A stretch of 36,527 nt of DNA. Origin: Seleniivibrio woodruffii (GTDB lineage Bacteria > Chrysiogenota > Deferribacteres > Deferribacterales > Geovibrionaceae). Position numbers and translations under genes: made by a program. The stretch lies in contig NZ_JAJUIS010000016.1 in assembly GCF_029267515.1 (NCBI RefSeq), positions 1-36,527 on the forward strand. The letters are read 5' to 3'. Position 1 is the first letter of the stretch. The number at the start of each line of letters is the position of its first letter. The notes beneath the pieces are model-generated. The model was given only the letters and a program-made list of their open reading frames with translations, had not been told where the DNA came from and did no database searches. Positions 25,066-35,008 of this stretch are shown piece after piece.

Positions 25066-25089
25066 GGAGTTAACGCTCCCTACATTTTT
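25062..25089. terminator. Bidirectional terminator shared by the chemoreceptor and desulforedoxin genes
   Basis: GTAGGGAG (25062-25069) and CTCCCTAC (25076-25083) form a perfect 8-bp stem with a TTAACG loop; T-run at 25085-25089. The stem contains the stop codons of both convergent genes. Confidence 0.8.
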
Positions 25090-25196
25090 GTCATCTTTAC
25101 CATGCAGCACATCAGAGCACCGCTGCCGCCGTTTTCAACCTTAACAACAGCGTTGCACACTTTACAGATATAGGTTTCGCCTTTTTTTGTCGCCAT
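25080..25196 (-). CDS. dsr: Desulforedoxin-like FeS4 protein
   Basis: 38-aa minus-strand gene. It has the desulforedoxin pattern: YICKVC near the N-terminus, a Gly-rich turn (VENGGSGAL) and the adjacent pair MCCM, giving four Cys ligands for a rubredoxin-like FeS4 site (C11, C14, C30, C31). The same domain forms the N-terminus of desulfoferrodoxin (superoxide reductase), but here it stands alone as in Desulfovibrio desulforedoxin. GAGGTG lies seven bases ahead of the ATG. The Tn7-like element begins about 25 bp upstream, so the native promoter has probably been cut off. The gene symbol is tentative. Confidence 0.85.
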   Translation of the reverse strand: MATKKGETYICKVCNAVVKVENGGSGALMCCMVKMTKM

Positions 25197-25220: not shown

Positions 25221-25320
25221 ATGTATCTTTAAATTAAAGTTGAACACTTTTAAAATAAGTCAGACACTTTTTAAATAAGATGAACACTTTTAAAATAAGT
25301 TGGACACCATATTTATGCCT
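25221..25320. repeat. Transposon right end: TnsB-site-like 20-bp tandem repeat array
   Basis: Units start at 25241, 25261, 25281 and 25301, each exactly 20 bp apart; the consensus begins TGAACACTTTTAAAATAAG. Units 1 and 3 are identical, unit 2 differs at a few bases, and unit 4 keeps only the start (TGGACAC). The 20 bp at 25221-25240 look like a further diverged unit. Closely packed 22-bp TnsB sites are a feature of the Tn7 right end, and TGAACA also occurs in Tn7's sites. TGT at 25222 is my best guess for the element's terminus; the exact boundary is uncertain because the other end lies outside the window. Confidence 0.75.
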
Positions 25321-25350: not shown

Positions 25351-26085
25351 ATGCCTGACTTGTCATTCGGTCAACCAAAGTTAAATGAATATACACCTGC
25401 TCTCACCGTAAGGGATGTGAAATCTCCCAACTCCAGATCTAAACGTGTGATGGGGTATAAAACAGGTCGGGTTCATCACTTCCTTTCAGACTATGAATCC
25501 GGATATTATTATCTGCTGGAATGGGCTGATAACGTTACTGATATCCGAGAACAGTTCCCTCTCGATATAAATGAAACCAAAGAGATAGCTGAACTTATCA
25601 ATGTCAGACATCCAGCTTACAAAGGCAGCGATATCGTAATGACGACTGACTTTGTTGTAACTATAAAATCAGGTCTCACCATTGCAAGAACTGTTAAATT
25701 CTCAAAAGACCTCGAAGACAAGCGTATTCTTGAGAAATTCAGTATTGAACAGGAATATTGGGTCAGAAGAGGTGTGGATTGGGGTATCGTGACCGAAAAA
25801 GAGCTGGATAAGGTTCTGATTCAAAATATCAAATTCTTTCTGCCCTATAAGACTCATGTCTGTGATGAGAAGATTGTCGAGACTATTTTGTCTGAAATAT
25901 CCTGCGGCAAAGGCAGGCTGAAAGAAGTGCTGGCATATTCGGATAACTATTTTGAGCTTGAAACAGGTTCTAGTCTTAATGTTTTTAAAGCGTTGGTCGC
26001 CGGAAAGAAGCTGGCTTTAGATATGGAAAAGAGATTCAGTGTGACAATGAATTGCGATGAAATAAGTATTGTTGGTGCTTCATGA
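25351..26085 (+). CDS. tnsA: Tn7-like transposase endonuclease subunit TnsA
   Basis: 244-aa protein with the restriction-endonuclease-like TnsA fold. Likely catalytic residues are E57 (LLEWAD), D100 (MTTDFVV) and K116 (VKFSKDL), matching the E63-D114-K132 order of Tn7 TnsA. The C-terminal part (EYWVRRGVDWGIVTEKEL) matches the TnsA C-terminal winged-helix domain. TnsA cuts the 5' ends of the element so that TnsAB performs cut-and-paste. Intact. ATG 25351 lies 22 bp after the -10 box. It overlaps tnsB by 4 bp (ATGA). Confidence 0.92.
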   Translation: MPDLSFGQPKLNEYTPALTVRDVKSPNSRSKRVMGYKTGRVHHFLSDYESGYYYLLEWADNVTDIREQFPLDINETKEIAELINVRHPAYKGSDIVMTTDFVVTIKSGLTIARTVKFSKDLEDKRILEKFSIEQEYWVRRGVDWGIVTEKELDKVLIQNIKFFLPYKTHVCDEKIVETILSEISCGKGRLKEVLAYSDNYFELETGSSLNVFKALVAGKKLALDMEKRFSVTMNCDEISIVGAS

Positions 26086-28121
26086 TTGTAAAAAATCAGG
26101 TTCTAAAGCTCGATGATGAGCGTCTCGTCAGGGTTTTGTGGATTGATCCGAACAACATATATGCATTTATCTATGATATAGACACATCTGGTCTGCCGGA
26201 AAGAGTTGATATCATAGATTTGTCTAAGTCAGCAGCAGATGCGGAAGATCCTTATGTAAATGTGGTTAGCGATGAGATCATTAGTGAAAATCATATTGAA
26301 AAGCGTAACGATCGCTGGCGTATCATTGAAAACTTGGTGACTCTTGAACCTGAAATATATATGCAAAAACAGAGAGGCAAACTAATTCAAAACACAGCAG
26401 AAATAACAGGTTCGCATAAAAAATTTATCTATGTGTTGTTAAAGCAGTTCTGGCAGAGAGGTATGACGAAGAATGCTCTCTTGCCGGATTACAACAACTG
26501 CGGTAGGGCTGTCCCAACTGCTGAAAGTCAAAAGGTCGGGCGTAAAAAGAAGTATAATGATGTAATAGGCAACGGAATTAAAATTACTGTTGATATAGAG
26601 AAAATTTTCAGTCACGTTTTCAAAAATTATCATAAAAATGCACAGAAGATGTCATTGATGGACGCTTACAGGGCAATGATCACCGAATATTTCAAAGAGG
26701 CTCTAGACAGCAAAGGCAACAATCTGGCTATTCCATCCTATCACCAGTTCAGAAGAAGATATTTGCAGCGGTATTCATCAGAAGAGATAGCCAAAGCGAA
26801 TAAAGGTGAAAAGGCATATTACAAGGATGTTCGTCCATTGCTTGGTAATTCAGGTGGTGAGGCTTATTGTCCCGGCGATAAGTACCAGATCGATGCGACT
26901 ATAGCCGATATTTACCTTGTCTCTTCCATGCACAGGGAATGGATAGTTGGAAGACCTGTAGTGTATTTTTGCATAGACGTTTTTACCCGTATGGTTGCAG
27001 GGTTTTATGTTGGTCTCACAGGTCCGAGTATGGAAGGGGCTATGATGGCCATTCTTAATTGTGCTGAAGATAAAGTCAGTTTTTGCAGGCAGTTTGGTAT
27101 TGAAATAAGTGCTGAAGACTGGCCTGTTCAGAATCTTCCGAAATGTTTCCTCGGTGATAACGGTGAAATGAGAGGCATCACGCCTGAGAATGCTATCAGG
27201 AGCTTCAATATTGAAATAGAGACCACAGGAAGCTACAGAGCTGATATGAAAGGCATTGTTGAGAGACATTTCAGAACAGTTCATGACAGAGTTAAACCCG
27301 TTGCTCCCGGTTTCGTTCTGCCGGATTATCAGGAACGTGGCGGCAGGGATTACAGACAGGATGCCGTCTTAACCATTGATGAGTTTACGAAAATCATTAT
27401 ACATTCAATCCTTGAGCATAATGATAAGATTATAAAAGATTATCCGTTCGATGCGGAGCTTGCGGGTGCTGATATAACATACACTCCGAAAGAACTCTGG
27501 AAATGGGGTGTTGAGCATCGTGCCGGAGCATTGAGAACCGTATCTTTGGAGCAACTTAAAGCGTCTTTGCTGCCACATAAAGATGCAACTGTAACTTCAA
27601 AAGGTATCAGACTGCACAACGACGTATTCTATACGCTACCTCTGGCAATGGAGCTTGGCTGGTTTGAGAGGAAATCAGGAGCAAAAAGCATGAAAGTCCA
27701 GCTTTCATATAATCCCAGAAACCTTACCGAAGCATATATCATTCATAACGGTGAGTATCTTCCTGTTTATCCGACTCCCGCATCAAACGCAGTCGGATAT
27801 AACCTTGAAGAGCTGGAATTTTATACAGAGCAGCTCAAATATAAACAGAGCCTTGCGGCGAAAAGTGAATTCCGCAAAAAGAGTATCTCTGACAAAGCTA
27901 TTAATGCAGTGATCAATAAAGCAAAAGTTGAGTCAGAACTGACAGCAACATCGAAAAAGAAATCCACTCAGGATGTCCGTTCAAACCGAAGGCTTGAGGA
28001 TATAAACCGCAGAAACGTTGTTCAGGATATCAGGAAAGAGCCTGAACCCGCCAAAACGAAAGACAGATTTCTGGCTATGCTGGAAGAAGTAAGGGATGAG
28101 GGGAACGAAAATGAATCATGA
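26082..28121 (+). CDS. tnsB: Tn7-like DDE transposase subunit TnsB
   Basis: 679-aa Mu/Rve-type transposase. The catalytic triad is D271 (YQIDAT), D359 (LGDNGE) and E394 (GIVERHF), almost the same spacing as D273-D361-E396 of Tn7 TnsB. N-terminal helix-turn-helix domains would bind the 20-bp end repeats. The basic C-terminal tail (KSTQDVRSNRRLEDINRRN...KDRFLAML) is the usual TnsC-contacting region. No disruption seen. It overlaps tnsC by 11 bp. Confidence 0.93.
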   Translation: MIVKNQVLKLDDERLVRVLWIDPNNIYAFIYDIDTSGLPERVDIIDLSKSAADAEDPYVNVVSDEIISENHIEKRNDRWRIIENLVTLEPEIYMQKQRGKLIQNTAEITGSHKKFIYVLLKQFWQRGMTKNALLPDYNNCGRAVPTAESQKVGRKKKYNDVIGNGIKITVDIEKIFSHVFKNYHKNAQKMSLMDAYRAMITEYFKEALDSKGNNLAIPSYHQFRRRYLQRYSSEEIAKANKGEKAYYKDVRPLLGNSGGEAYCPGDKYQIDATIADIYLVSSMHREWIVGRPVVYFCIDVFTRMVAGFYVGLTGPSMEGAMMAILNCAEDKVSFCRQFGIEISAEDWPVQNLPKCFLGDNGEMRGITPENAIRSFNIEIETTGSYRADMKGIVERHFRTVHDRVKPVAPGFVLPDYQERGGRDYRQDAVLTIDEFTKIIIHSILEHNDKIIKDYPFDAELAGADITYTPKELWKWGVEHRAGALRTVSLEQLKASLLPHKDATVTSKGIRLHNDVFYTLPLAMELGWFERKSGAKSMKVQLSYNPRNLTEAYIIHNGEYLPVYPTPASNAVGYNLEELEFYTEQLKYKQSLAAKSEFRKKSISDKAINAVINKAKVESELTATSKKKSTQDVRSNRRLEDINRRNVVQDIRKEPEPAKTKDRFLAMLEEVRDEGNENES

Positions 28122-29184
28122 TAAGCCTGAAGACCTGATGGCCGTTTATAAAAAGCAGCTTGTGAAGCAGTATGAGGGCAATATTCTGATTGAAGCGTTG
28201 CCGGAGATAATGGATTTTAAACAGATTGCCCGTGCATTGACCAGTAAACCTGTGTTCTCGGCAGATGAGAAACAGTTGCCGGAACATATCAGAGCGGCGA
28301 GTCTCAGCCGTATATTCTCATACTTTCAGCCGCTATCCATCCATGTCGAATATGCTGACAAGATCGGCAGGATGATACGTGACGGCTATATTTCCAGAAG
28401 ACCGAAACCTGTGAGAGAACAGCTTGCTCCGGAAGAGCTTGCTGAGTATATGAAATCAGTAGGTGAATCGGATGTTTTTGACTGCGTAGCAAGTGCCGGA
28501 GTTCTGGGCATGTCCGGTATGGGAAAGACCACTACCACGAATAAGATTCTGTCACTTTACCCACAGCAGATAATCCATGGGAGACCTTACAATCTGACTC
28601 AGGTTGTGTGGGTGAAAATAGATTGCCCCTCAAACGGGAGCATGAAAAAACTCTGTACCTCCTTCTTTCAGGCGATAGATGATATTCTTGAGACTGAATA
28701 CGCAAGATTATATAACAAACTCTCCATAGATGACCTTCTGGCAAAAATGGCTGACGTGGCCGCAAGACACTATGTTGGTCTGTTTGTGATTGATGAGATC
28801 CAGCACCTTGTCAAAGCCAAGGGAACGGGCGACAGAGCCATGCTTAATTTTCTGGTGACAATGAATAATGTCGTTAAAGTGCCTGTTCTGCTTATAGGTA
28901 CTCCCAACGCAAAGGCTTTGCTGCAAAGAGAATTCCGGCAGGCAAGACGCATGGACGGCATCGGCGGCATCTACTGGAAACGTCTCGGAAAAGGCGATTA
29001 CTGGGATTTCTTTATCAAAGGACTCTGGAAATATAACTGGCTGAAGAATGACGTGCCGCTCTCACAGGAGCTTTCCGATGTTTTGTATGAAGAGAGCCAG
29101 GGAATCATTGACGTTGTGCTGAAGATATTCCTTGCTGCTCAGTACAGAGCCATTCTTGATGAATCTGAAACCATTACGCCGTAG
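28111..29184 (+). CDS. tnsC: Tn7-like AAA+ regulator TnsC, cut short by an in-frame amber codon
   Basis: 357 residues to the TAG at 29182. The AAA+ core is complete: Walker A GMSGMGKT (133-140), Walker B LFVIDE (224-229), sensor LIGTPNA (261-267), then EESQGIIDVVLKIFLAAQ. The stop falls directly after ETITP, where TnsC proteins normally continue with LIR and a C-terminal domain; exactly such a continuation is encoded in frame after the TAG. Read through, the product would be 524 residues, close to Tn7 TnsC (555). The N-terminal TnsD-contacting part and ATPase remain, while the TnsA/TnsB-contacting tail would be lost. ATG 28111 has GAGGGG seven bases ahead; ATG 28096 is a poorer start. Confidence 0.85.
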   Translation: MNHDKPEDLMAVYKKQLVKQYEGNILIEALPEIMDFKQIARALTSKPVFSADEKQLPEHIRAASLSRIFSYFQPLSIHVEYADKIGRMIRDGYISRRPKPVREQLAPEELAEYMKSVGESDVFDCVASAGVLGMSGMGKTTTTNKILSLYPQQIIHGRPYNLTQVVWVKIDCPSNGSMKKLCTSFFQAIDDILETEYARLYNKLSIDDLLAKMADVAARHYVGLFVIDEIQHLVKAKGTGDRAMLNFLVTMNNVVKVPVLLIGTPNAKALLQREFRQARRMDGIGGIYWKRLGKGDYWDFFIKGLWKYNWLKNDVPLSQELSDVLYEESQGIIDVVLKIFLAAQYRAILDESETITP

Positions 29185-29685
29185 TTAATCAGGTTTGCCG
29201 CACAGCATGATATCCCGAACATGCGGGAGACTATTGATGCAATTAAAGCAAATCCTGACATGGCGGAGAAAGTCCACGGAGACGTTACAGCCGCCACCAT
29301 GGAGGACATTGTTTCCAATGTCCGGAGTTCTGTGCCCAGCAAGACACATTCTGACGATGAAAGCGGGCAGACTTCCGTTCTGGGTCGTGCAGTTAGTACA
29401 CTTATGTCTATGGATATTCCTGAAACCTATGCTGTCAGAGAAGTCTGTGATTTGCTGAAAAGATTTCCCGATATGGCTATGAAAAACATCGTTGGGAAGG
29501 TTATCGAATCTTATGACAAATTAATGAAGTCTCAGAATCAACCGAAGAGAAAGGAAGACAAACCTGAGCTTTTAAAAATCAGAGACACGGCAGAGGCAAA
29601 AGGACTGCCAGTTTACGATGCTTTAAAGGAACACGGTCTGATCAAGAACCCTTCGGAGGACTTTGAGTTGGGAGCAAAAGACTAA
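29185..29685 (+). pseudogene. tnsC: C-terminal remainder of tnsC after the amber codon
   Basis: In-frame continuation of tnsC: LIRFAAQHDIPNMRETIDAI follows the TAG without any shift and stays open for 166 codons to TAA 29683. The segment LIRxxA...IDAIK is what TnsC proteins carry after their AAA+ domain. It ends in a basic linker (NQPKRKEDKPELLK) and a helical tail. An internal ATG at 29221 exists, but no ribosome-binding site precedes it, so separate translation looks unlikely. Either a point nonsense mutation split the gene, or the amber is read through. Confidence 0.75.
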
Positions 29686-29726
29686 CCTGTTTTCCTGATC
29701 CTTACCCTCACGAGCTTCTTTGCAGT

Positions 29727-31247
29727 GTGGTTGCCAGATACCACAGGAATATGTCTTACACAAATTTAAGCCACAGTCTCAATGACCTTTTTGGAACTCC
29801 AAACATAAAAGCAGTTTATGACTTGCCTTGTCACATCGGTGAGCTGGCGGGGCGGCTCAATTATTCAGGATTTACATACACAGCTTCCGAACTCATAAGA
29901 AACCATACCCTGTTCAATCTTTACGAACCTTTTCTGCCAAATGAGCTGGCTGAGAAAACTTATGCCAGGATGCTAGGATGTGGCTCACTCGGTCTACATG
30001 CTTCATTAGGGTTGTGTTCTTCCACAGTCCCGATGCTGGAATATTATAAATTCTGTCCGGAATGCAATGCGGAATTTATGAAGTCTCATGGCGGAATATA
30101 TCTGCACAGGGTGCACCAGACCCCATGTATTGACGTATGTCCTTATCACAGGATACCGCTTTTCAATTCATCAGTGACGATAGAAAACTTTGATGGCAGA
30201 CACATAAGCTATAACAGGAGCCTTGTTGATTTATCGAAATATGATTATTCCATGTTGGTTCGTATTGCGGAGGCTTTTGAATATATTATTTCCGGTCAGC
30301 TCCGGTGTTCGTATGCAGATCTGAAGCTCAGATATAGAAGCCTTTTGAAAGAGCAAAATTATCTGTACGGAAACACAAGATTGGACACCCAAAAAGTAAT
30401 GAATGATTTTATTAATCATTACGGTGAAAAGCTGCTTATGAGGTTTGGGGCAACTGTTGAAGATGTATATTGTAACTGGTTATTATCTGCCTTTCGGAAC
30501 ACAGATCGCATCACCCACCCTGTCAGACATATCCTGATTATTCTGTTTTTCTGTGAGTCCGTTCATGATTTCAGTCAGCACAGCCCCTTGTCGGAATTGA
30601 AGCCAGAAAAACGAATAAATGCCCCCAAAAACGATTTTGCACACCATTACAAGTCAATACTCGCTTTGATTGATAAATTCCCAGAGAAGAGCCGTCAGGC
30701 ACTCAGGAGTATGGACAATGCCGCTTACCAATGGCTGAATATTCATGATAAAGATTGGTTTGAACGGCATATGCCGCCGAAGCGTATCCCAAAACCCGTT
30801 CCTAAGAGAATCAACTGGGCTGATAAGGATTCTGAGGTTCTGGCAAAAGTCAAAAAAAGCGTTTCCCAACTTTTGAGTGAGCGTAACCCGTTCGTGCGTG
30901 TTACTATTTATGCAGTATGCGGCAGAAGTGGCGAACAATACCGTATATTAAATAATCGCCATAAGCTGCCGAAGACTATGAAGTATTTAGAAGCTGTTGC
31001 TGAGACTTCATTACAGTTTCAATATCGCAAAATTCGTTGTGTCATAAGTGACACAAATGAAGAACTTACGAAGGAGCTGATTTACAAAAATGCCTGTATT
31101 GTTAAGTACAGGTTCAGGGAAGTGGATGATTACATAGAGTCATTGTTTAGCGGGGTTCAAATAAATGTCGGTAAAAATTCAGGCGTTCAAAGCAGTCGAA
31201 TATGCGACAATCTACTGGGTTGGCGGCTTCGTCAAAAGAAACAATGA
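29727..31247 (+). CDS. tnsD: TniQ-family target selector TnsD, with no canonical start for its true N-terminus
   Basis: 506 aa from GTG 29727. Family zinc motif FCPECNAEF...HRVHQTPCIDVCPYH is clear, and the length matches TnsD, which binds an attachment site and recruits TnsC. The hallmark TniQ opening FPDPYPHELLCSVVARYH is encoded from 29691, so translation should begin near 29685, giving about 520 aa. In that frame there is no ATG, GTG or TTG between the stop at 29664 and 29727; the expected start position holds ACC at 29685, right after a GGGAG. From GTG 29727 the protein would lack its first ~14 conserved residues. It overlaps tnsE by 83 bp. Confidence 0.75.
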   Translation: MVARYHRNMSYTNLSHSLNDLFGTPNIKAVYDLPCHIGELAGRLNYSGFTYTASELIRNHTLFNLYEPFLPNELAEKTYARMLGCGSLGLHASLGLCSSTVPMLEYYKFCPECNAEFMKSHGGIYLHRVHQTPCIDVCPYHRIPLFNSSVTIENFDGRHISYNRSLVDLSKYDYSMLVRIAEAFEYIISGQLRCSYADLKLRYRSLLKEQNYLYGNTRLDTQKVMNDFINHYGEKLLMRFGATVEDVYCNWLLSAFRNTDRITHPVRHILIILFFCESVHDFSQHSPLSELKPEKRINAPKNDFAHHYKSILALIDKFPEKSRQALRSMDNAAYQWLNIHDKDWFERHMPPKRIPKPVPKRINWADKDSEVLAKVKKSVSQLLSERNPFVRVTIYAVCGRSGEQYRILNNRHKLPKTMKYLEAVAETSLQFQYRKIRCVISDTNEELTKELIYKNACIVKYRFREVDDYIESLFSGVQINVGKNSGVQSSRICDNLLGWRLRQKKQ

Positions 31248-32691
31248 GCCTCCGAGATTGCGTGTTTATACATCTCAGAACGGTTTCGTATGGTACTATC
31301 TCGTTCCTCTCGGAATGCTCCCGTGGATGTTCATAGGATCGACATATGAGTACGGTAGACCAAGCGGTGTCGTCAAAAGCGGAACTTTCAATTTCAAACT
31401 GCCCAGAATGTCTGATATCCGGTTTGTTCCTTTCAGTGATATGTCTGTTTCCCTGAGAGAAAATCGTAGAAATCCGGAGATAACGAAGGAATATGTGTGC
31501 AAGTTTGTGTCGGGAGAGCGAACGTATTACATACCGCAAATGGAGATAATCAGGGCTTTTCTGGGCATGAATTCTTCCATGTCCAAATACATTTTGTCGC
31601 CATCAGGCTTTGAGGATTTATGCAGAATTGTGAGTGCTGATGATGAGAGAGTTGAGCTTGAATTCAGCAACAGGTTTGCACGGAACAGTCTTAACTATTC
31701 AACAGCTTCATGTGTTGCGACACAGCTGCTTGATCAGAACTTTCGTGACTTCCGTCACAGCGTTTACGAGTGCTTCAGATTGAATGACCAGAGCCAGCTT
31801 TTCAAACCTTCCGGACTTGATAACCTGACCTTTTACTGCAATGGACGCTGGTCTGGAAATGATTATCTTGTGTGGCAAATTTCGTCAGTGAAAAACATAA
31901 ATGTTCCGTTTGATAACCTGTTGTTTTCACATGTGAACGATTCATCTGCGGAGAGAAGTGGAGTGGATACAAAAGACAAAAAAGCATACATACCACGCCG
32001 TGGTGAAGACGGTTATGAGGTGACTGGTTCTGATTATTCCAGACGTGAGTCGAACCCGATTACCATGTGGAATGAAACGGCAAAAGTATCTTATGGTTTC
32101 AATAAAAAAGTGCATTGCAAACGGAAGGAAAGCAAGAAAGATAGACAATATAAAGCCACTATCAGAATAGATAAAGGCAAAGCACCTGATAGTAACCTAC
32201 TGAGTGCCGGAATCGGTGTTGGTGACGGTAAAATTAAGCCGCTGGAAATTGATAATGTATCACTGTATGAGACCTATAAAAAGGACATCAGAGGGCTTGA
32301 AGATTTCCTGAGAGCAGTTGAGTATCTGAAGACAATGATTCCGGTTGAACGTGTCCATATCGGCAGTTTATTCGGCGATAAAAAGTTCGTTATGCTGGAT
32401 GAAAGTACCCGCCGTTCTTATGCAATAGTGTATCTTCAAAACGCATTTATTATCGAGGTTGCAAGACCGGATGAACACTCAATTGCCACGCTTATTCTGA
32501 AGAACATTTCGGAGAAACAATTCAACTATTATCTGCGCTCTTTGCTCACAAGCATGATTGATAATGGCGGTCATTGGGACTTCGATGTGCTTAATGCTCT
32601 CTTTTCTGATAATTATTTTATTACCAAGCATATGATGTTTGACACTTATTTTGTATGGTCTAAACGACTAATTAAGCATGTCATAATATGA
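31165..32691 (+). CDS. tnsE: Tn7-like target selector TnsE
   Basis: 508 aa, close to Tn7 TnsE (538). Segments that align by eye with Tn7 TnsE are the N-terminal beta region (IYWVGGFVKRNNEPPRLRVY), RTYYIPQMEIIRAFLGMNSS, and the C-terminal DNA-binding domain FIIEVARPDEHSIATLILKN followed by HWDFDVLNALF. A low-complexity charged middle (residues ~270-330) separates the halves. TnsE directs insertion into replicating DNA, especially conjugal plasmids, through the sliding clamp and recessed 3' ends. It appears intact. The start lies inside the end of tnsD with GGGG upstream. Confidence 0.85.
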   Translation: MSVKIQAFKAVEYATIYWVGGFVKRNNEPPRLRVYTSQNGFVWYYLVPLGMLPWMFIGSTYEYGRPSGVVKSGTFNFKLPRMSDIRFVPFSDMSVSLRENRRNPEITKEYVCKFVSGERTYYIPQMEIIRAFLGMNSSMSKYILSPSGFEDLCRIVSADDERVELEFSNRFARNSLNYSTASCVATQLLDQNFRDFRHSVYECFRLNDQSQLFKPSGLDNLTFYCNGRWSGNDYLVWQISSVKNINVPFDNLLFSHVNDSSAERSGVDTKDKKAYIPRRGEDGYEVTGSDYSRRESNPITMWNETAKVSYGFNKKVHCKRKESKKDRQYKATIRIDKGKAPDSNLLSAGIGVGDGKIKPLEIDNVSLYETYKKDIRGLEDFLRAVEYLKTMIPVERVHIGSLFGDKKFVMLDESTRRSYAIVYLQNAFIIEVARPDEHSIATLILKNISEKQFNYYLRSLLTSMIDNGGHWDFDVLNALFSDNYFITKHMMFDTYFVWSKRLIKHVII

Positions 32692-32761: not shown

Positions 32762-35008
32762 ATGGAGATGGATATGAGCGATAATTTCGTTAATATACAG
32801 ACGGGGAAATTTGAGGAAGTACTGGCTCTTGCATTTTCCCCGACAGTTGCGTTGTCTGAATTGATAAAGAATGCATCAGATGCTTGCTCAAAGAAAAATG
32901 ATACCATTATTATCAAAATTGATACTAAAAATAGGTCAATTTTGATTAAAGACAACGGTATCGGTTTGTCAAAATCTGATATAACCAAATTGAGAGATGT
33001 TGGATATTCAGATAAAATGCGGGATGGAAACAATTTGTCAGCAATTGGCGAGCCTTATGCTGGTAGTAAAGGTTTGGGTCTTTTAACGGCCTTTTATTTG
33101 TGCGAAGATCTTGAGATTCGTACATTCTCTGAGGTTGATAAATGTGCATATAAAATTACTTGGAGAAAGGGCACAAATATCATCAAAGATTTAAAAATAG
33201 ATGAAGATATTACTGGTACTGAATTATACTTGCATAATATAAGCATTGAAAATATTTCTTATATTACTTTAGAAGAAGAATTAAAAATTCTATATATGAC
33301 ATCAATTAATTATTATATAGAAAATCACTCTCTTCCTATAATTCAAATATATGTCGATGAAGTTTTAAAATCGGTATCTCCTATCAAGAAAATTGATCAA
33401 CTATATGAAAGCAATAAAAAGGGGCTTAAGAATAAAGGCTATTTTGTTGCCAAAGCTTCATTTAAATATTCTAAAGGAATTCTAACGCTTTCTTATGAGG
33501 ATAATATTGAAAATGTGTATTGTTTTTCAGATGAAAAAATACAAATAACTGATATAAACTCAATAATAAGTTTTTTGAAATCAAAACAAATCACACTTAA
33601 TCGATATCGTGATATGTTTATCAAACTAGAGGGCTTAAATTGCGATGTTGATGATTTTGAAGGTGTGTATTATATTTGGAGAGATAAAAAAAACGATGAA
33701 ATAGTTGATTACCCATATGGTATTAGAATTTATGTTAATAATTATGGGTTATATTCTTATCTTAATCAAGATTATGATTGGCTTGGACATTCTGAAATAT
33801 CACAAAATAAAAAGGCTTCAAACTTCAAACTTAAAAACACATATGGGTATGTTTGTTTCACAAACTATAATGAACCTAATGCGTGGATGAAAATTGCAAA
33901 AGAGAGAAACGATTTTGAAGGTACTTTAGCAAAAAGAAAATTTAGTTTAATTATGAGAGAATTTGTGTCCGGAATATTTAGTGATATAGATATTAAAATC
34001 AAAAATTATGTTAAAAATAATCATTATACCTTTCGCCTTAGACATAATAAAAGAAATATCGTGCTTGGAAATTTATTCAATTTGAAAGAATTACTGAATA
34101 CTGACCTTATATTTGATGAAATTGAGATTAAGTGTGAAAATACAGAATATGTTCTTGGTGAAGATGGCGATATAACATTTAACGATTGTGGACAGTACCA
34201 TTTTTCATTTCAATATGAAGAAAGAATTTTAGAAGCCATTGTTAATGTTTTAGATCCAGCGCCTAATTTTACAATCAAAAAGAAAGTTACTGTTGATGAA
34301 AATAATTCATACGATTTGCGCCTATTGATTAATAGGAGTAAATTGGAGAATATCGAACTGGCTCAAATTGAAATTTCAAGTGATGAAGTCGATATCAAGA
34401 ATGGTATGCTTTCGCCACATACTCCCCCGGGAACTTACACAATATACTACAAGTATACTGATGAAGAACTTGAAATATGCCACACGGCAGAAGTGACTGT
34501 GAAACAGATTAATTCTAATGAAGCAAAAAAAATTAAAAAGCTTTTTGGAGATTATTATAAGCTGGTTGGATATGATAAGACAAAAGAGATTATAGACGGA
34601 ATAGCTGCGTGCCATATCAATTATCCTACAATATGTATGTTTAGTTTAAGGGTTTTGACTGAGATTCTTTTGAAAGATTTCTTTGCTAAATATTGTTTGG
34701 ATTCGGATTATAACAATGATGGGAACTTGCCTGGCAAACTTGAAGCATTTTTAAATAGAGCTTTTATAAATTCAGAAAAGAATAATGTCATGAAAAAATT
34801 GGTTGACCAAAGTATTCAAAATAAATACTTCAACAAGCTTAATGATGGTAATATAAAAAAGAGAATCCTCAAATCATATAATAACCTCGAACTCAATTTG
34901 TTCGTACATAACCCAGAGTTCAAATGCACTACTGGTGAATTTAAACAAAGTTTAAATATAATGATTCCTGTGTATAATTTAATAATAGAGGCTCTACTAT
35001 TTGAGTAA
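32762..35008 (+). CDS. MORC/MutL-like GHKL ATPase (defence-type cargo)
   Basis: About 748 aa, AT-rich. The N-terminal GHKL ATPase domain has N-box SELIKNASDA (E33, N37), DNGIG (64-68) and GSKGLGLL (101-108), the pattern of Hsp90/MutL/MORC proteins rather than histidine kinases, since there is no H-box. The middle (~200-480) is an unrecognised S5/beta-rich region; ~500-580 looks like an Ig-like beta module (SPHTPPGTYTIYYKYTDEE). The C-terminus is helical (LRVLTEILLKDFFAKY). Bacterial MORC-like ATPases are known next to methylases in restriction-modification loci, which fits the methyltransferase that follows. Starts at 32762, 32768 or 32774 all have a usable ribosome-binding site. Confidence 0.7.
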   Translation: MEMDMSDNFVNIQTGKFEEVLALAFSPTVALSELIKNASDACSKKNDTIIIKIDTKNRSILIKDNGIGLSKSDITKLRDVGYSDKMRDGNNLSAIGEPYAGSKGLGLLTAFYLCEDLEIRTFSEVDKCAYKITWRKGTNIIKDLKIDEDITGTELYLHNISIENISYITLEEELKILYMTSINYYIENHSLPIIQIYVDEVLKSVSPIKKIDQLYESNKKGLKNKGYFVAKASFKYSKGILTLSYEDNIENVYCFSDEKIQITDINSIISFLKSKQITLNRYRDMFIKLEGLNCDVDDFEGVYYIWRDKKNDEIVDYPYGIRIYVNNYGLYSYLNQDYDWLGHSEISQNKKASNFKLKNTYGYVCFTNYNEPNAWMKIAKERNDFEGTLAKRKFSLIMREFVSGIFSDIDIKIKNYVKNNHYTFRLRHNKRNIVLGNLFNLKELLNTDLIFDEIEIKCENTEYVLGEDGDITFNDCGQYHFSFQYEERILEAIVNVLDPAPNFTIKKKVTVDENNSYDLRLLINRSKLENIELAQIEISSDEVDIKNGMLSPHTPPGTYTIYYKYTDEELEICHTAEVTVKQINSNEAKKIKKLFGDYYKLVGYDKTKEIIDGIAACHINYPTICMFSLRVLTEILLKDFFAKYCLDSDYNNDGNLPGKLEAFLNRAFINSEKNNVMKKLVDQSIQNKYFNKLNDGNIKKRILKSYNNLELNLFVHNPEFKCTTGEFKQSLNIMIPVYNLIIEALLFE

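Follow-up and report, generated by a model that had tools for sequence, protein, structure and literature searches.

How is the target selector of a Tn7-like element translated when the conserved beginning of the protein is encoded upstream of the first standard start codon in its frame? The question is raised by a stretch of 36,527 nucleotides of Seleniivibrio woodruffii DNA (NZ_JAJUIS010000016.1, hereafter referred to as the window), which is one entire contig of a 2.83-Mb draft genome in 35 contigs.

The tnsC/tnsD junction of the window

The element lies on the forward strand. Its right end (25222..25310) begins TGTATC, contains three copies of a TnsB-site-like 31-mer stepping 20 nt, and resembles the TGTATCGG/TGTGTTGG ends of an element in Denitrovibrio acetiphilus described below; the left end lies beyond the contig. 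Next to the right end are tnsA (25351..26085; PF08722, 8.4e-18; PF08721, 1e-9), tnsB (26082..28121; PF09299, 9.7e-8, plus aligned homologues), the tnsC frame (28096..29685), the tnsD frame (29667..31247; 526 codons with TniQ and TnsD domains; PF15978, 1.4e-41; PF06527, 4.7e-14), and a tnsE-like gene (31165..32691) whose PF18623 match (8.4e-5, 22.9 bits) is below the family cut-off of 26.7. By Pfam matches and order, tnsA, tnsB, tnsC, and tnsD (tniQ) form the single operon that defines a Tn7-like element, and both the tnsA-B-C-D-E order and the TniQ plus TnsD domains of TnsD are alike in Tn7 (TnsABCDE) and in the clade considered here. The tnsD of this clade differs from that of Tn7 in having no start codon and in lying in the -1 frame of tnsC.

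A TGA at 29664..29666 (+) closes the TnsD frame, which is open from 29667 onward, with the codons GTT GGG AGC AAA AGA CTA ACC TGT TTT CCT GAT CCT TAC CCT CAC GAG CTT CTT TGC AGT preceding GTG 29727. The earlier note had reported that this interval holds no ATG, GTG, or TTG and that the conserved TniQ start, FPDPYPHELLCS, is encoded from 29691, upstream of the GTG; direct reading and translation confirmed both points. CTG, ATT, ATC, and ATA are likewise missing, and the Pfam TniQ match begins at open-frame residue 9 (F of FPDPY, profile position 3), also upstream of the GTG. About 20 codons without a start are not rare by chance; the unusual feature is a TnsD gene that is startless before its motif.

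The tnsC frame terminates with TTG GGA GCA AAA GAC TAA (29668-29685) and thus overlaps tnsD. Several possible signals are found here, all on the forward strand. A Shine-Dalgarno-like GGAGG (29655..29659) ends 8 nt before a TTG in the tnsC frame (29668..29670), which is a possible start, and 10 nt before the GGGA at 29670. A candidate -1 slip region (29670..29679) contains G_GGA (29670-29673) and A_AAA (29676-29679), following the motif classes of PMC4066793. At CTAA (29682..29685), the tnsC stop is overlapped by the TnsD-frame Leu codon CTA.

Conservation of the junction among relatives

A search of 99 genomes with the TnsD frame returned three matches, including the window's own. The other two (E about 1e-90) were in the D. 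acetiphilus type strain (G007) and in a metagenome-assembled genome of Denitrovibrio sp. BM704 (G011, PKTN01000005.1), both belonging to the family of the window genome, and window TnsD is 33% identical to either. The D. acetiphilus match is on a single contig of 3,222,077 bases; what its genome report states on sequencing describes a finished genome of 3,222,077 bases with an error rate of <1 in 100,000 (PMC3035293). A first scan of genome contigs with the single protein gave no match, and no further clade members were found in two added genome sets (0/3 and 0/291 genomes) or among the viral contigs and phages searched. In a further set, 9 of 386 genomes matched, all more weakly, with no startless case among the seven matches counted. 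Plasmid matches (191 records) were all below 60% identity, at 23-28% among the 20 listed.

Comparison of the homologous elements at this junction showed that tnsD is startless in both Denitrovibrio relatives. Aligned on the FP motif, the TnsD frame after the closing stop (TGA in the window and G011, TAA in G007, at the same aligned place) reads GTT GGG AGC AAA AGA CTA ACC TGT TTT CCT in the window, GTT GGG AAA AGA TGC TTA AAG TAC TTT CCT in G007, and AAT GGG AAG AAA TAC TTA AGA TAT TTC CCT in G011, with no start codon between that stop and the TniQ motif in any of the three. The upstream frame ends TTG GGA GCA AAA GAC TAA in the window, TTG GGA AAA GAT GCT TAA in G007, and ATG GGA AGA AAT ACT TAA in G011. 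All three thus share an upstream frame that ends xTG-GGA-three codons-TAA and overlaps tnsD in the -1 frame, with the distances between the -1-frame stop, G_GGA, TAA, and FP motif unchanged from member to member; the CTAA of the window is TTAA in both homologues.

In the window and G007, these upstream-frame codons are the last ones of tnsC. In G011, tnsC ends 325 nt earlier and an insert parts it from tnsD. The insert carries a hydrophobic ORF of 57 codons (L003:1315-1488) that has a ribosome-binding site of its own; the stop of this ORF is followed by AGGAG and then by the overlapping frame, which is only five codons long. Across four genomes searched, the insert was found as a single copy, in G011 alone, and there was no indication of a repeated mobile piece. 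Two weak Rfam matches, far under the cut-offs, both fell outside it.

A Shine-Dalgarno sequence precedes xTG in all three members (GGAG, 5-8 nt away), as GGAGG-8-TTG in the window, AGGAG-8-TTG in G007, and AGGAG-5-ATG in G011; its distance to the slip motif is 10 nt in both the window (to G_GGA) and G007 (AGGAG to G_GGA_AAA). The motifs themselves vary, with the heptamer G_GGA_AAA in G007, the tetramers G_GGA and A_AAA in the window, and G_GGA with A_AAT only in G011. In 15 tns frames, Shine-Dalgarno-preceded starts numbered 71 over roughly 22 kb, or 0.0032 per nt of coding sequence, and 16 of 7,464 codons gave an in-frame G_GGA; these frequencies were not multiplied into a probability because the three members are homologous and because Leu-Gly is also encoded at the TnsC C-terminus in many homologues. 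No downstream RNA stimulator was supported by shuffles (z -1.1 to 1.7) or synonymous shuffles (z -1.9 to 0.0, best 13 of 300), and downstream stems scored by the same rule were inside the range of 43 controls. Downstream hairpins or pseudoknots are common, not universal, in bacterial -1 frameshift genes, and these tests covered shuffles and stems.

The upstream stretch bears the marks of protein-level selection. Between G007 and G011, codons 9-20, all of which are upstream of the first standard start, differ by three synonymous and no nonsynonymous changes, compared with pN 0.28 and pS 0.69 over the remaining tnsD; between the window and G007, 8 of these 12 residues are identical, compared with 33% overall. 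Since it is conserved and changes synonymously, this stretch is translated or was until recently. The clade therefore has a downstream -1 frame that is open, lacks its own start, and is kept by selection, with tnsD staying open for 515-526 codons in all three members.

A wider scan of named genomes provided 47 loci, one of them the BM704 locus. For the control count this locus (L004, which is G011 itself) was removed, five others (L017, L034, L046, L047, and L049) had no row for the motif expression, and TnsDs were counted only if their frame continued for at least 300 codons after the motif. ATG, GTG, or TTG was present before the motif in 49 of 49 TnsDs outside the clade and missing in 3 of 3 inside it. 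The nearest control start was at codon -4 before FP in 28 TnsDs, at -3 in 11, at -6 in five, at -5 in two, and otherwise at -1, -9, or -15. None was at -2, the codon of ACC 29685, which the earlier note had proposed as the lost ATG. Given this distribution, CTA 29682-29684 (codon -3), which overlaps the tnsC stop as ATGA would, is likely a better candidate for the site of a lost start; the YTA codon would be accounted for by an ancestral ATGA overlap at this place that disappeared with a change of TGA to TAA.

The three startless TnsDs form one clade with support of 100/100 and long branches. Membership of a single clade indicates that the state arose once, as one evolutionary event and not three; the long branches (33% identity), set against starts in all 49 controls, indicate that it was kept over deep divergence.

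State and target sites of the elements

The D. acetiphilus element appears functional. Its tnsA, tnsB, tnsC, tnsD, and tnsE frames are all uninterrupted, and it extends from 258913 to 275768 (16,856 bp), with TGT...ACA ends flanked by the 5-bp duplications CAAAA/TTTTG. As in the glmS targeting of Tn7-like elements, the glmS-side end in the Denitrovibrio relatives is found 25 nt beyond the stop codon of the neighboring gene, which is the TnsD-type site of Tn7. The gene in G007 was identified as putative glmS from its near-identical C-terminal sequence, and that in G011 is a glucosamine synthase-like gene with Pfam SIS and GATase domains. Between glmS and the main G007 element is a 379-bp mini-element, TGTGTAGG...CCACAACA (L074, G007:C1 about 275774-276152), that has Tn7-like ends, TTTTG on both sides, and an end 25 nt past the glmS stop. 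It was probably moved in trans by the main element. Together, the two insertions suggest that glmS targeting worked at least twice in the G007 lineage, and TnsD-type targeting would then have worked in elements whose tnsD is startless, unless the TnsD came from some other element.

The window element, in contrast to Tn7, is not adjacent to glmS, which is not the target of every Tn7-like element. Its neighbor, 26 nt from the right end, is a 38-codon ORF with CxxC and CC motifs (25080-25196, minus strand), presumably desulforedoxin-like, which may mark a different target site. The genes beside tnsE also vary by element and perhaps represent defense cargo: a HATPase protein in the window (32762-35008), AAA plus subtilase in D. 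acetiphilus (L051:9007-12063), and FRG plus Beta_protein in G011 (L052:11775-13548).

The earlier note had counted two faults in the target-selection module of the window element. One of these is real: an in-frame TAG (29182-29184) breaks a tnsC frame that is otherwise open to 29685, at a codon that is GAA (E) in G007 and GAT (D) in G011 in the aligned read-through frames. For the other, the missing tnsD start, the label of fault is not supported, because the whole clade has this feature, and one of its members is a finished genome whose element has intact tns genes and target duplications at glmS. Judged by its sequence, the amber is a separate lesion of the window copy, distinct from the question of the tnsD start. 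Because of it, ribosomes from the tnsC start fail to reach the junction and the copy is probably impaired. A change of genetic code is not favored as an explanation, since 3 of the 26 window genes read end in TAG; the extra stop in G011 is a TAA. The latter lies in frame in tnsB (L052:5572), where relatives have K or E, and the G011 element may thus be dead.

Candidate routes to TnsD translation

The missing start gives the impression of a conserved device for expression and not of a gene that has broken down. In its simplest form, tnsD of the clade would be expressed through -1 recoding at the tnsC/tnsD overlap as a low-level TnsC-TnsD fusion, an account to which we assign slightly less than an even chance. 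Ribosomes finishing tnsC would cross the internal Shine-Dalgarno-like sequence and, 10 nt on, meet xTG-GGA followed by A-rich codons. A small share would slip back one base before the in-frame TAA, at G_GGA_AAA in D. acetiphilus and, in the window, at A_AAA or at G_GGA, the latter being the less likely site. The slipped ribosomes would read the TniQ frame and yield a little TnsC-TnsD fusion, joined at the natural end of TnsC, beside much TnsC. Such a fusion would tie the target selector to its ATPase and hold the selector scarce, as for the frameshifted transposases of insertion sequences.

In favor of recoding are the G007 heptamer with AGGAG ending 10 nt ahead of it, the startless overlap and its spacing in all three members, the protein-level selection upstream of the first start, and the intact G007 element at glmS. 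Slippage by -1 from the last codons of tnsC into the TniQ frame had been suggested earlier for the window alone, and it gains support, at the level of sequence, from the same startless arrangement in two 33%-identical homologues and a full G_GGA_AAA in one of them. The frameshift motif of phage lambda g-t, G_GGA_AAG, is one letter from that of D. acetiphilus, and the dnaX frameshift site resembles this overlap in having a Shine-Dalgarno sequence 10 nt upstream; dnaX and g-t are unrelated genes. A passage of PMC5009743 describes G_GGA_AAG as highly shift-prone in E. coli. For E. coli, passages of Sharma et al. (2014; PMC4066793) name G_GGA_AAA among the more efficient motifs of IS1/IS3 elements and treat A_AAA tetramers as weak yet used by elements of the IS1/IS3 type; six working tetramers gave 0.26-5.6% with a strong pseudoknot, A_AAA being the weakest and G_GGA lying outside the set. 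IS1/IS3 elements (OrfAB; IS911, IS3) share with the clade a -1 overlap without its own standard start, an upstream Shine-Dalgarno sequence, and, as a candidate in the clade, a Z_ZZN or X_XXZ_ZZN motif (PMC4066793, PMC5009743). The clade's element differs from them in that it is not an insertion sequence, its downstream protein would be a target selector instead of a catalytic transposase, and a hairpin or pseudoknot is unsupported.

Other observations weigh against this account. The members are one clade and represent one event, G_GGA is not shift-prone by E. coli rules and A_AAA is the weakest working tetramer, a downstream stimulator is unsupported, and an in-frame fusion to TnsC occurs in no control TnsD (0 of 49). 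In the window, the amber would block the fusion route unless translation restarts downstream of it, e.g., at ATG 29221. G011 has no efficient slip motif, and its 325-nt insert makes a fusion to TnsC impossible.

Because of the insert in G011, a second form of recoding is a serious rival, in which the Shine-Dalgarno-preceded TTG, TTG, or ATG in the tnsC frame would initiate translation and a -1 slip on the next codon (G_GGA) would give a free TnsD beginning M-G-[S/K]-K/R. One Shine-Dalgarno sequence would serve initiation and slipping alike. This sequence and a start codon are at the required spot in all three members, and in G011 they are well formed and head the five-codon frame. G_GGA, rare in frame, is the sole slip tetramer with cognate re-pairing common to the three, and the first residue of the product would be at codon -8 before FP, as in ordinary TnsDs. 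Against this, G_GGA is not shift-prone in E. coli, a programmed slip immediately after the start codon is not known to us, and TTG GGA may be protein-driven, given the Leu-Gly pair encoded at the TnsC C-terminus in many homologues. We regard initiation followed by a slip as possible but somewhat unlikely. The fusion is the best fit to G007, and of the two frameshift models only initiation followed by a slip can accommodate G011 as well; both models use the slip region and the Shine-Dalgarno sequence. Taking the two models jointly, some -1 recoding at the overlap appears probable from these sequences. That the clade uses -1 frameshifting to make either a fusion or a slip-started TnsD, with the recoding rate setting the choice of target, is in our view evenly balanced.

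In one open-access literature collection, we found no report of frameshifting at tnsC/tnsD, of a TnsC-TniQ fusion, or of a Denitrovibrio Tn7. Passages of a survey of Tn7-like elements list two Deferribacteres hosts and do not mention a frameshift (PMC8649781), and the fusions mentioned in passages of a survey of target selectors are TnsAB and TniQ-TnsF only (PMC10293859). Frameshifting is already known to limit transposase in insertion sequences; in a Tn7-like element it would act on the target selector instead and so provide a different point of control. Should a TnsC-TnsD fusion be made, the selector would be scarce and pre-tethered to the AAA+ regulator that is loaded at glmS, and the fusion would offer a ready tethered selector for studying how TnsD loads TnsC on DNA.

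The remaining explanations dispense with recoding. The start may have been lost in an ancestor and tnsD left unmade, with movement through TnsE or the help of other copies and with frames that decay slowly. Two of the three copies do have a further stop outside tnsD, in a different tns gene (the tnsC TAG of the window and the tnsB TAA of G011), and the window element is away from glmS. We nevertheless find such a relic doubtful, because tnsD is open over its full length in all three members despite 33% identity, the upstream codons of G007 and G011 differ only synonymously, and both of these elements are at a TnsD-type site beside glmS. A little less credible still is a non-canonical restart, in which ribosomes at the tnsC UAA would begin again on the overlapping CUA or UUA, a decayed ATGA, to make TnsD from codon -3. 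YTA is at codon -3 in all three members, directly overlapping the stop, with GGGA 7-8 nt upstream, and 39 of the 49 controls start at -3 or -4. CUA and UUA, however, mismatch the initiator tRNA at two positions, and the residues between GGG and YTA have a higher sum-of-pairs BLOSUM62 score when read in the TnsD frame (+7) than when read as tnsC (-3), a comparison of three codons only.

It is very improbable that TnsD begins at GTG 29727 and that the upstream motif is untranslated. The window and G007 both have a GTG at this codon, but it specifies Val within the conserved motif SVVARYH, the TniQ domain begins upstream of it, and the upstream residues are conserved. Nor do the homologues show a TnsD that truly begins there: G011 has GTA-ATA at this place and no start until 29 codons further, its first being TTG L003:1609. 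Automatic annotation would truncate tnsD of this clade at the internal GTG or label the gene as broken. A sequencing or assembly error, conceivable in a 35-contig draft, is the least credible explanation, since two further genomes, of which one is finished, have the startless junction as well. Transcriptional slippage is likewise not favored, the longest run of A in the overlap being four.
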